Positions 3,916 to 21,407 of a stretch of DNA of 21,407 nt are shown one piece after another; positions within the stretch are counted from its first letter, which is position 1, and every line of letters starts with the position of its first letter. The stretch comes from a virus: IMG/VR virus record IMGVR_UViG_3300033552_000061, positions 1 to 21,407 of that record; one strand, written 5' to 3'. The position numbers were made by a program, and so were the translations under genes. A model generated the notes under the pieces. The model was not told where the DNA came from and did not search any database. It saw only the letters and a program-made list of their open reading frames with translations.

Positions 3916-6009
3916 ATGAAAGATTATGCTACTAGCCTGATTATAGTTGCGCCTTTCCCATCAAATACTGGAGTCAACATTACTGTTGAAAACGGTCACG
4001 GGTCAAGGTTTCCAGCTGTACCATTTAAGGCAACAATACATCCAGCACTATACATGCCGGACCTAGACAATGCCGAGAAGGTATTAGTCACTGCAAAAAA
4101 CGGTGACAACCTCACCATCCAACGTGCAGTTGCCCCAACCACAGCTAAATATATTGAAGCTGGTTACAGAATCTCAAACGCCTTGTTTGTAGAAGACTTT
4201 GAATACATTGCTGACATAGCAGCTACTCCTGGACCAACGGGTCCAACAGGTCCCACAGGACCAACCTCTACAGTTCCTGGACCTACTGGTAATACTGGTT
4301 TAACTGGACCTACCGGAGCAACAGGTGCGGCATCAACAGTAGCCGGACCTACGGGCCCACAAGGTACTACGGGACCTACAGGAGCCGCCTCAACAGTTCC
4401 TGGACCTACAGGTCCACAAGGACCAGCTGGTACAAACGGCACTGGTACTATTACCAGTATTGTTGCTGGTGCAAACATATCAGTTAACAATGCCGATGTT
4501 AATAACCCAGTCATCTCAACTACGGCTACTCCACTGACAGTCAAGGACGAGGGCACGACTTTAACTTCAACCCCAAATTCGTTTAACTTTACTGGCGCAG
4601 GAGTTTCGGCAACTAGCGTAGGAAACGACGTAACAGTCGCAATTAACGCAACAACCCCTGCCGATGCAAGCCCTACAGTAAAGGGTATTGTTCAGCTTGC
4701 TGGCGATCTTGCAGGAACGGCCACTGCACCTACGGTCCCAGGACTTGCAGGAAAGGCAAACACAAGCCACACCCACGCACAATCAGATGTTACTGGATTA
4801 GCAGCTTCACTGTCCGGAAAAGAAGCCACCATCCCAGCAGGGACTACTGCCCAATACTATCGTGGTGACAAAACATTTCAAACACTTGACAAGACAGCAG
4901 CAGGTATACCTAACGTAGACAACACAGCGGACACAGCTAAACCTGTTTCTACTGCACAGCAAGCAGCACTCAACCTAAAAGCAAACCTGTCAGGACCAGC
5001 ATTTACTGGGCTACCGACAACCCCGACACCAACAGGTGCAACGGGAATTGCAACAAAAGGATACGTTGACACTCAAGCCTCTTCACAATCTTTAATTCGC
5101 AACCAAGTACCAGGTGGCCTAGTAAACGGAACAAACACCGTCTTTACAACCGCCTCGGGATACGCAACGGGCTCACTAAGACTGTACAAGAACGGTATTC
5201 GCCTTAAGGGTGGTGCAAACGATTATACAGAAGGAGCCTCGGGCTTCACTATGGTTATCGCACCAGCTACAGGAACATTACTGGTAGTAGACTACGAAGT
5301 AACCGCAACTGGATTCTCAGTAGGAACAAACTCAACAATCTCAGATGATACTCCAGCAGGAACAGTAAACGGCTCAACAGTTGCATTCACTGCGCCAAGG
5401 GCTTACATTGCTGGTTCACTTGAGGTATTTATTAACGGTATCAAACAAAAACGAGTTACTCACTTTGTGGAAACTACGCCAAGCACTGGTGTATTCACCA
5501 TGGGTGACGCTCCACTCACTGGTGATATTATCACTATTAATTACCAGTTTAACCTCAACCCTTCAAGCAACGCAGATACAGTAGACGGGTTTCATATTGA
5601 AGGTATATTCAATGCCCTGTACCCAGTAGGTAGTGCCTACACAAACTACACTAATGCCGCAAACCCAGCAACACTATTGCAAATGCCATGGTCAACCTGG
5701 ATTGCTAAAGAGGGCAGAGTAGTCGTCGGTAAAGCCGCTAGTGGAACATTTGCAACCGCAGGCTCAACTGGCGGTGCAGAAACCCACACACTATCCGGTG
5801 GCGAAATGCCAGCTCACTCCCACGCATACAAGCTTAACCTTATGCACTCAGACGGACAAGCTGTCAATGCAGAGTTTATAGCAGCAAACCTTTCTAGCGG
5901 TGCTTCTCGTAGGCGTTATCTTGACGTTACTGAAGTTGCAGGCAGCAGCCTCCCCCACAATAACTTACAACCATTCGTTACCGCATACGTCTGGGAAAGG
6001 ACAATTTAA
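3916..6009 (+). CDS. Tail fibre with collagen-like repeats and collar-type tip domain
   Basis: Long receptor-binding fibre, 697 residues, built from clear modules. Residues 1-100 are a beta-rich adaptor of a kind common at fibre N-termini, with a [10 protein letters not shown] strand and NAEKVLVTA. Residues 106-175 are collagen-like Gly-X-Y triplets. Residues 290-390 are fibre-shaft repeats ([19 protein letters not shown], then TKGYVDTQ). Residues 392-466 and 473-548 are two copies of one beta domain. Residues 564-697 are a T4 gp10/gp12-like collar tip with [15 protein letters not shown] and the metal-binding-type MPAHSHAY motif, ending [16 protein letters not shown]. The gene sits alone downstream of the terminator with an AAGGA site, and its stop overlaps the next start (TAATG). 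Which receptor it binds cannot be read from sequence. Confidence 0.85.
4231..4440 (+). repeat. Collagen-like Gly-X-Y repeat region
   Basis: About 70 residues of mostly Gly-Pro-Thr and Gly-X-Thr triplets inside the fibre. A larger unit of roughly 19 residues, built on ASTVxGPTGPQG, appears twice (near bases 4330-4385 and 4387-4440), and a divergent [11 protein letters not shown] precedes them. The triplets are interrupted by the STV and AASTV breaks. Such stretches form trimeric triple helices in phage fibres; length variation by recombination would be expected. Confidence 0.9.
5089..5559 (+). repeat. Tandem duplicated beta domain in the fibre
   Basis: Two adjacent units (5089-5313 and 5332-5559) share the order VNG, T-V-x-FT, a GSL strand, N-G-I-x-x-K, then TGxxxxxxY. 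Unit one has [26 protein letters not shown] and [11 protein letters not shown]. Unit two has [25 protein letters not shown] and [11 protein letters not shown]. The match is clear by eye at protein level but diverged at DNA level, so the duplication is old. It probably spaces the tip domain or adds a binding surface. Confidence 0.75.
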
Positions 6010-19752: not shown

Positions 19753-20034
19753 TTATTTTCGTTCTTCATAAAATTGTTTTGTAATGCGTACAATCTCACT
19801 CGTTTTTGCACGTCTTTTTGATAGAGGGTCAAATACAAATATAACACTAGTATATTTAAGACTCCTAGGACCCTTAGGCGTGACAAAACGCCCGAACTCA
19901 CCTTTGCTTTTATTACCACCCCAACTATCTCCTCTGTAGACAACAAGTTCTACTTTATCATTTATACTTCTGGCACATACGTCACCAGGGTTCAACACCT
20001 GGCCCAGTAAATCCTTCTTCTCGTTAAAACTCAT
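19753..20034 (-). CDS. Hypothetical small beta protein next to the kinase
   Basis: A 93-residue protein using the ATG at 20034. Two upstream Met codons (20043 and 20070) lie in the same frame inside the kinase gene, but the start at 20034 gives an 11-base overlap typical of coupled genes. The protein begins NEKKDLLGQVLNPGDVCA, then shows strands VELVVYRGDSWGGN, GRFVTPKGPRSLKY and TSVIFVFDP, and ends in a basic helix (RVR-less, AKTSEIVRITKQFYEERK). It looks like a small beta barrel with a helix; the SWGG turn and PGDVCA start are notable. No function is assigned. Confidence 0.55.
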   Translation of the reverse strand: MSFNEKKDLLGQVLNPGDVCARSINDKVELVVYRGDSWGGNKSKGEFGRFVTPKGPRSLKYTSVIFVFDPLSKRRAKTSEIVRITKQFYEERK

Positions 20035-20911
20035 GGTGAACATTGCCAACCTGGAATGTAAACAGTCCAAGTTCTCTCCACATGCGACACACCGAAGGGC
20101 GATCGTCGATTACATACTTGACATTGTATTTGTTTTTTATATGCTTATCGTAAAGTTCTTTTTTGACTTCAGTGTCAGGTCGTTCATCCCCGACTTGCCT
20201 TGTGTGGAGTTCGTCGTAGTCGATTCCATTGTTATCCAACCAAGCTTCCGTTGTTTCACGATGACCCTCGTCCTTACCCCTGCCTGAGAGAATGATAACT
20301 TTGTAACCGTGACCGTATGCCATGGCCATAACATTAGAAACAGCATCATCAACGCTATCTTCCCCAGCACGACTAGCGTCATAAATATCACGAGTGCTAC
20401 CATTACTGTCGGGAGAAAGATGAGCAAGAGTGCCATCAATGTCAACAATAATACATTCTTCCAAATTTTCATTGTATTCTACTCTTTCTTGTTTTAGTGT
20501 TGCAATGTGCCTGCTGTGCATACTTGTTATGACACTTAGAGGAACTTTGTCAGCTCGTCGTTCGTTTCTGCTGATACATTCTTCTAGTGGCGTGTCAATA
20601 AATAGTACCCTGAAACTTGCTCCGTTAGTATTAGCTAGTTTTTCAAATAACTCTTGGTGCTTTGGTTCAAAGTTGGTGTCGTCAACTACTATATTTCTTC
20701 CGTGTGCTATTGCATTCTCTATAAGGGCGTTGCGTATAAACAGTACCTCAGCCTCATTGCGTTTACCGAATTTACCATTGTGCAACATTTTGCGAAGGTC
20801 ATCTTTGTTAATTCGCAAGTAGTCCATTTCGTCCACAAGCTCTTTTGCGTAGGTACTTTTACCGGACGCAGGTAGACCTTTAAGCATTAGTAGTTCTGGT
20901 TTATTTGTCAT
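20024..20911 (-). CDS. Polynucleotide 5'-kinase / 3'-phosphatase (T4 PseT-like)
   Basis: Two-domain end-healing enzyme of 295 residues, close to T4 Pnkp (301). The N-terminal kinase has the Walker A motif GLPASGKST (12-20), a likely catalytic Asp at 37 or 38 in NKDDLR, and Arg 115/119 in the RNERRADKVP lid. The C-terminal domain is a DxDGT-type (HAD) phosphatase with D157/D159 in IIVDIDGTLAH, the SGRGKDEG motif (209-216) and IDDR (268-271), followed by MWRELGLFTFQVG. The kinase-then-phosphatase order matches T4 Pnkp. It removes 3' phosphates and adds 5' phosphates, preparing broken RNA or DNA for ligation. In T4 it repairs tRNA cut by host anticodon nuclease. No RNA ligase is in the window. 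AAAGGAG fixes the ATG. Confidence 0.92.
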   Translation of the reverse strand: MTNKPELLMLKGLPASGKSTYAKELVDEMDYLRINKDDLRKMLHNGKFGKRNEAEVLFIRNALIENAIAHGRNIVVDDTNFEPKHQELFEKLANTNGASFRVLFIDTPLEECISRNERRADKVPLSVITSMHSRHIATLKQERVEYNENLEECIIVDIDGTLAHLSPDSNGSTRDIYDASRAGEDSVDDAVSNVMAMAYGHGYKVIILSGRGKDEGHRETTEAWLDNNGIDYDELHTRQVGDERPDTEVKKELYDKHIKNKYNVKYVIDDRPSVCRMWRELGLFTFQVGNVHHEF

Positions 20912-20927: not shown

Positions 20928-21086
20928 TTACTGGCACGAATCGCATTGCAGGTCATCCATTGGGTCTGTCGGCACTACGTACATTTCCATAGCCCTTCCA
21001 CCGATAAGACGATGTGCAAGCTCGTGGTTTACTTCCAACTGTCCCAGTTCTTCTGGGGTTGCGTTTCTTTCAAATTCTATACTCAT
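20928..21086 (-). CDS. Tiny protein with C-terminal Cys-x-x-Cys-Gln, copy 2
   Basis: A 52-residue protein, too short to be caught by a 60-residue cut-off. The N-terminus is acidic and helical (ERNATPEELGQLEVNHELAH), and the C-terminus is VPTDPMDDLQCDSCQ. The last 15 residues closely match the end of the gene directly upstream (APVDPSDLTMCEGCQ), which its ATG overlaps by 1 base (TAATG). The Cys-x-x-Cys pair could bind metal or form a redox pair. It lies 16 bases upstream of the kinase/phosphatase start. Confidence 0.6.
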   Translation of the reverse strand: MSIEFERNATPEELGQLEVNHELAHRLIGGRAMEMYVVPTDPMDDLQCDSCQ

Positions 21087-21262
21087 TATTGGCATCCTTC
21101 GCACATTGTTAGGTCACTTGGGTCAACTGGTGCATTCAGTGGCCTGCCGTTACGTTTATTAAAGTCTTCCGGTGATTCTTGTGCACTGTGCATCAGCCTG
21201 TCGATGGCCTCAAGCTTCTCTTCCAAGGTCATCTCTTCTTTTATGATCTTATTCCCGTTCAC
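21086..21262 (-). CDS. Tiny protein with C-terminal Cys-x-x-Cys-Gln, copy 1
   Basis: A 58-residue protein. The GTG at 21262 is preferred: an AAGG sequence lies about 8 bases upstream and the preceding gene's stop is just before it. An ATG ten codons later is an alternative. It has a charged helical N-terminus (NKIIKEEMTLEEKLEAIDRL), a linker with RNGRPLN, and the tail APVDPSDLTMCEGCQ shared with the next gene. No function recognised. The conserved tail in two otherwise different proteins suggests a shared partner or metal site. Confidence 0.55.
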   Translation of the reverse strand: MNGNKIIKEEMTLEEKLEAIDRLMHSAQESPEDFNKRNGRPLNAPVDPSDLTMCEGCQ

Positions 21263-21263
21263 G

Positions 21264-21407
21264 CTACTCGCCTTTTTCTGCTACAATCTTCAATGTCTCG
21301 TTTAGTTTACCGGCTGTGTAGGCTGCTTTGAGTGCATCTTTAATGTCGTAGGCATCATTAAGGTCACGACCCAGTGAGTTATCTTCTGGTTCACCACGAC
21401 CAAATGT
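21264..21407 (-). CDS. Hypothetical protein, 3' end only
   Basis: Only the C-terminal 47 residues are in the window; the start lies beyond base 21407. It begins with a Gly/Glu/Asp-rich part (FGRGEPEDNSLGRDL), then a helix with AYDIKDALKAAYTAG, and ends in NETLKIVAEKGE. The stop is TAG, one base before the GTG of the next gene. Same direction and spacing as the other left-going genes, so it is part of that operon. Function unknown. Confidence 0.5.
   Translation of the reverse strand, partial: TFGRGEPEDNSLGRDLNDAYDIKDALKAAYTAGKLNETLKIVAEKGE

Follow-up and report, generated by a model that had tools for sequence, protein, structure and literature searches.

Stand-alone phage micro-genes as probable detached redox tails of class I ribonucleotide reductase

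We analyzed two adjacent micro-genes, A and B, at one end of a 21,407-nt stretch of viral DNA (IMG/VR record IMGVR_UViG_3300033552_000061, positions 1 to 21,407; hereafter the window) and conclude that they very probably encode detached, trans-acting C-terminal redox tails of the α subunit of class I ribonucleotide reductase (RNR), NrdA, which would help the phage to use the RNR of its host. At the level of sequence, this reading draws on the similarity of the tails, the splitting of host NrdA, the complementarity of split and fused forms, gene order, NrdR-like boxes, selection and the absence of phage NrdA. The relevant features are as follows.

21086..21262, minus strand: gene A, GTG start, 58 aa, ending APVDPSDLTMCEGCQ and TAA; putative stand-alone RNR redox-tail protein, Saccharibacteria type
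20928..21086, minus strand: gene B, ATG start, 52 aa, ending VPTDPMDDLQCDSCQ and TAA; putative stand-alone RNR redox-tail protein with a Microbacteriaceae-type tail
21089..21133, minus strand: putative redox tail of gene A, sequence APVDPSDLTMCEGCQ; fused-NrdA-tail profile E = 1.6e-7
20931..20975, minus strand: putative redox tail of gene B, sequence VPTDPMDDLQCDSCQ; fused-NrdA-tail profile E = 8.5e-8
20024..20911, minus strand: polynucleotide kinase/phosphatase, downstream neighbour; PF25109 E = 6e-42, AAA_33, phrog_505 E = 6.3e-85
21264..21407, minus strand: incomplete upstream ORF, of which the C-terminal part falls inside the window; 80% identical relative in contig L002

The original prediction had described two adjacent micro-genes of 58 and 52 residues with matching P-x-D-P...C-x-x-C-Q ends, unrelated N-termini and a position just upstream of a polynucleotide kinase/phosphatase gene, and this description holds. 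Both ORFs are present on the minus strand, the match between them is confined to the tails, and both cysteine pairs lie at the extreme C-terminus, CEGCQ in gene A and CDSCQ in gene B, followed by the stop. The stop of gene A and the start of gene B have one base in common (TAATG), and downstream of gene B come a ribosome-binding site and the kinase/phosphatase gene, identified by PF25109 and AAA_33. The same gene follows the tail gene in L002 and, farther off, in L003, and the L002 relative of the window's upstream ORF likewise lies upstream of the tail gene. The tandem arrangement, with an overlap of the same type, recurs in another phage contig, L007. Comparison of gene A with its relatives gave pN/pS values of 0.19–0.38, and that of gene B with its L007 counterpart gave a pS of about 1.0 and a pN of 0.16; judged by these substitution patterns, both tails are under purifying selection. 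Relatives of gene A are encoded on five phage contigs, and the conserved parts of their alignment are the helix (MTLEEKLAAID) and the tail. In gene A, the helix MTLEEKLEAIDRLM precedes the tail, and the structure model places a helix at residues 13–27, followed mostly by short helices and coil (mean pLDDT 73), a predicted layout in which a short helix might serve for docking while the tail stays mobile. A degenerate DNA pattern encoding DPx[DE]xxxC[DE]xCQ-stop gave at least 120 matches in IMG/VR, in short ORFs with the same tail context, and read backwards it gave no matches in 159 bacterial genomes. Because pN/pS is low, the tandem is kept in L007, the pattern is widespread and the reversed pattern is absent, the twin ORFs exceed what chance would produce. 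Conservation in related genomes, on which the original prediction had been staked beforehand, is thus apparent from the pN/pS values, the L007 tandem and the IMG/VR matches.

Searches of genes A and B against Pfam, PHROGs and NCBIfam gave nothing above cut-off and no convincing E-value over the tail; the match to phrog_14482 (E = 0.006) spans residues 4–26 of gene A only, and a tblastn search of gene A against isolated phages returned chance-level matches only. In GTDB genomes, the pattern occurs in two kinds, either fused to NrdA or as a separate ORF. The fused kind forms the very C-terminus of RNR α chains of 800–1100 residues in Parcubacteria-type lineages and in actinobacteria such as Demequina, Mumia and Jiangella, so that the tail recurs on other proteins, as the original prediction had suggested it might, by ending NrdA itself. 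The separate kind is an ORF directly behind nrdA in Saccharibacteria and Microbacteriaceae. The α chain accompanied by a separate tail has ATP-cone, PF00317 and PF02867 domains and matches NCBIfam NF005101, its closest solved relative by sequence being 5im3, a structure of P. aeruginosa NrdA. In both operons checked (L208 and L177), the gene order is nrdA-tail-nrdB, with a β subunit of the PF00268 family; the domains, NF005101 and the β gene behind the tail gene identify this α chain as a class I enzyme. When a profile of 34 unique fused NrdA tails was searched against the 570 ORFs of the window, it matched gene B (E = 8.5e-8) and gene A (E = 1.6e-7) and no others; none of the remaining ORFs fell below E = 2.5, and the best of 20 shuffled sets reached E = 1.1. 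Gene A is 47–60% identical to tail genes located just downstream of nrdA in Saccharibacteria, with 47–57% identity over all 58 residues to those of Saccharibacterial nrd operons, and gene B resembles the nrd-operon tail genes in the tail only. Both genes are separate from any RNR α, so a covalent link to the catalytic barrel is absent. One Saccharimonadales tail gene (L352:1262-1468) ends in CEGCE, not CEGCQ, indicating that the terminal Gln is not absolutely fixed. A Pup-like modifier, suggested by this Gln, was unsupported, the RNR explanation covering that residue, and an arbitrium-like signal peptide was rejected given the RNR link and the absence of any sign of a secretion signal.

Split and fused enzymes proved complementary. 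Among 116 distinct NrdA C-termini, 31 were fused and 85 had no CxxC; a tail gene ended 65–279 nt downstream in 80 of the latter, and a second tail followed none of the 31 fused chains. As for the remaining five, two have a tail gene 1.5–2 kb away (L260, L267), one lies on a contig that ends within a tail start (L310), one is a frame artefact (L342; in that genome the pattern occurs 47 nt downstream of where NrdA matches), and for the last, the CxxC-less NrdA of Saccharimonadales genome G212 (L350), no tail gene was found over roughly 1.5 kb downstream. None of the 37 NrdA loci L318–L354 contained CxxC. The tail-less chains retain their catalytic signatures: the YY motif is present in all 79 examined, and 78 of them keep all three active-site cysteine motifs. 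Across 80 Microbacteriaceae genomes, NrdA and the tail pattern occurred together in the same 38 and neither occurred in the other 42 (p = 1e-23). Among 79 sampled Saccharimonadales genomes, six had NrdA; the tail pattern was found in four of these six and in none elsewhere, and a fifth has the CEGCE variant. The implication is that tail-less NrdA models in these groups are not mis-annotated but represent incomplete enzymes. A GFG-containing motif (e.g. ARRGFGG, RKGFGFGG) lies near the end of 83 of the 85 tail-less NrdAs from Microbacteriaceae and Saccharibacteria and is a candidate docking site for the detached tail. The class Ib NrdE of Leifsonia retains its own CVSCML end.

The tail of NrdA is flexible, and its cysteine pair acts after each turnover and is then re-reduced by glutaredoxin or thioredoxin. 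In class I RNR, it is this C-terminal dithiol that reduces the active-site disulfide before a redoxin restores it (PMC5704485, PMC9669993). We propose that in some Saccharibacteria and many Microbacteriaceae, where NrdA stops short of the tail, the micro-gene directly behind nrdA would supply it, and that tail proteins made by a phage may bind host NrdA and shuttle electrons to it, the donor in some phages probably being a glutaredoxin encoded next door. The outcome would be a dNTP supply raised or secured during phage DNA replication. By analogy with the split class II RNR, in which NrdJb does this job, the micro-protein would carry electrons from glutaredoxin to tail-less NrdA. Tail binding to NrdA, catalysis in trans and the benefit to the phage are the steps that we infer; if they hold, one added short peptide could let a phage boost the RNR of its host.

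The tail is widespread among mobile elements. Searching IMG/VR with gene B yielded 32 loci, mostly matching just its last 17–35 residues; these relatives are micro-ORFs of about 20–30 residues (e.g. VNEVDSVGGYAVPVDPMDDLQCESCQ), and in 31 of the 32 loci a stop, which the search did not require, follows directly after CQ. Isolated phages with the tail comprise Pontimonas phage phiPsal1, Clavibacter phages CMP1 and CN1A, in all three of which the micro-gene is unannotated, and the cyanophage Pan2 of Pseudanabaena, where it lies at L040:6001-6081 and is annotated as hypothetical Pan2_27. In phiPsal1 (L039) and CMP1 (L041), the micro-gene directly follows the holin gene, where the lysis cassette ends; the CN1A copy (L042) lies slightly farther along, behind a metallophosphatase gene. 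Such a position suggests late expression, which is unexpected for part of an RNR. Plasmids of Clavibacter, Leifsonia and Gryllotalpicola carry the tail as well. The 33-aa tail protein of the Leifsonia plasmid (L283:2974-3075) has been annotated, seemingly in error, as 'ribonucleotide-diphosphate reductase subunit beta' (WP_223361114.1).

Phages with a tail nearly always have no NrdA. It was found above cut-off in just one of 46 phage records searched, with one further weak match below cut-off, an absence that is firm for the four isolated phages, whose genomes are complete, and weak for the IMG/VR records, many of which are fragments. The window, itself an incomplete fragment, contains no RNR gene, RNR α included. 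Considering that the phages are nearly all without NrdA, their tails should serve the host enzyme. The one record with an NrdA above cut-off, a 95-kb viral contig (L136, L287), has a tail-less NrdA and, about 3.5 kb before its end, a tail gene preceded by an NrdR-like box pair, as if the gene were under host NrdR control.

The near-absence of phage NrdA would also be expected if the phage tails were decoys or inhibitors, occupying the tail site of host NrdA or soaking up glutaredoxin and so throttling or redirecting host dNTP synthesis, and the varied N-terminal bodies of the phage tail proteins could alter the outcome of binding in this direction. We nevertheless consider such a role very unlikely. 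Like host tails, the phage tails retain both cysteines, the DP and the terminal Q, and they are under purifying selection; the retained dithiol speaks against a decoy, since an inhibitor would not need it. In L006 and L007, the tail gene has a glutaredoxin gene (PF00462) as its neighbour, as it does in L082, where the glutaredoxin was recognized by sequence motif; this arrangement fits electron supply. Lytic DNA phages, moreover, usually need more dNTPs.

Three possibilities had been put forward in the original prediction: a docking tag, a metal or redox site, and a signal that a common partner reads. The redox site and the common partner were right in kind, given that the tail matches the RNR α dithiol tail, whose partners are the α active site and glutaredoxin or thioredoxin; zinc found no support. 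A CxxC is able to bind zinc and the bodies of genes A and B differ, as might be expected of a zinc hook or a general protein-docking tag that is unrelated to RNR in the phage and either derived from the RNR tail or similar to it by convergence. However, each chain has two cysteines only, the match to RNR tails spans about 15 residues including the DP and the terminal Q, and gene A matches a Saccharibacterial nrd-operon tail protein over its whole length, making a role unconnected with RNR highly improbable.

Programmed frameshifting or readthrough, by which host NrdA and tail would form one chain and the phage copies would be fragments of such genes, is extremely improbable: host tail ORFs do lie close to nrdA, no more than about 280 nt from its stop and in many cases sharing a few bases with it, but the frame of the tail relative to nrdA takes all three values, which argues against fusion by a frameshift, the gap varies, the tail genes have their own start codons and N-terminal sequences, and orphan copies far from nrdA have NrdR-like boxes of their own. 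Such an additional orphan tail gene, away from nrdA, is present in many Microbacteriaceae. Using a combined mismatch of 11 or less as the criterion for a box pair, we found paired NrdR-like boxes upstream of 23 of 29 orphan host tails, compared with 0 of 655 background windows. The boxes are nearly always 33 bp apart, start to start, corresponding to a 17-bp spacer, and NrdR proteins tolerate spacers of 14–17 bp (PMC12051234). Before phage tails, no box pair of host strength was found except in L136, suggesting that the phage copies are mostly not under NrdR.

Returning to detached tails that serve a host RNR, the window offers indications of which host this is. Relatives of its portal protein occur in 4 of 294 Saccharimonadia genomes, and, taken together with the full-length resemblance of gene A to Saccharibacterial operon tails, this suggests by sequence comparison that the window belongs to a phage of Saccharibacteria. 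The two tails differ in type: that of gene A scores 46.8 bits with a Saccharibacteria tail profile and 13.9 with a Microbacteriaceae one, whereas for the tail of gene B the order is reversed, at 42.3 bits (Microbacteriaceae profile) against 19.2 (Saccharibacteria profile). Gene B of L007 behaves like that of the window (45.6 versus 29.8 bits, respectively). Because gene A has a Saccharibacteria-type and gene B a Microbacteriaceae-type tail, the twin could be a two-key kit with which the phage of an epibiotic Saccharibacterium serves two different RNRs, one belonging to the epibiont itself and the other of actinobacterial derivation; in broader terms, detached enzyme tails would be exchanged among mobile elements as minimal metabolic genes. 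We regard this extension as unlikely. A literature search on Saccharibacteria with Microbacteriaceae carriers found nothing useful.

The closest precedent that we found for a detached class I tail is the split class II RNR NrdJa/NrdJb of P. aeruginosa, which a 2015 paper called the only split RNR in a non-viral organism (PMC4520616). There, too, the cysteine-bearing C-terminal part for thiol-disulfide exchange is a separate protein encoded by an adjacent gene, and the catalytic chain is without it (PMC4520616, PMC5704485); alone, that chain gives trace activity only, with an artificial reductant (PMC4520616). NrdJa/NrdJb is, however, a class II, B12-dependent enzyme, NrdJb comprises 229 residues that form a cysteine-rich domain including a zinc finger, and similarity of a class I tail to NrdJb is not reported (PMC5704485), whereas the phage and host tails described here belong to a class I enzyme, have 20–60 residues and are carried alone by phages and plasmids. 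Membership of genes A and B in the NrdJb family, with its cysteine-rich domain of 150–220 residues and six conserved cysteines, was rejected, as they have 58 and 52 residues with two cysteines each and the partner operons, with their PF00268 β subunit, are class I. The tail of class I RNR α (NrdA/NrdE) typically has CxxC at its end (PMC9669993), the same extreme-C-terminal motif that is fused in Parcubacteria-type lineages, Demequina, Mumia and Jiangella; here the motif ends an independent polypeptide that has a start codon and an N-terminal extension of its own and can be unlinked from nrdA. Phages are known to bring RNR parts, some in two pieces, but split phage RNRs such as nrdA-a/nrdA-b of Aeromonas phage Aeh1 are complete enzymes, mostly cut by introns, inteins or homing endonuclease insertions (PMC3653736), whereas here the tail comes alone, without a catalytic subunit. 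Phage NrdH and glutaredoxin accessory genes likewise provide an electron-delivery part for RNR; those redoxins reduce the RNR tail, whereas genes A and B would be the tail, the next step of the relay. Our literature search, beyond whose range most subscription journals and preprints lie, turned up no publication describing a split tail of class I RNR or the motif.

It is at RNR that DNA precursor synthesis is committed and regulated, and the class I form of this enzyme is split in two distant bacterial groups, with the detached part borne alone by phages and plasmids as a gene of 20–60 codons. Members of the tail family are too short for the size limits that gene callers apply, and Pfam, PHROGs and NCBIfam contain no model for them. 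An old question, whether the redox tail of RNR functions fully in trans and how it is held, becomes testable with a synthetic peptide.

Two further observations concern the surroundings of the tail genes. An RNA-ligase-like ORF, recognized by eye, and the polynucleotide kinase/phosphatase flank the tail gene in the window's relatives (L003:3542-4531, L002:2857-3822, window 20024-20911), possibly constituting a phage RNA-repair pair. Elsewhere in the window, positions 3916-6009 encode a fibre-like protein with a collagen-like stretch.
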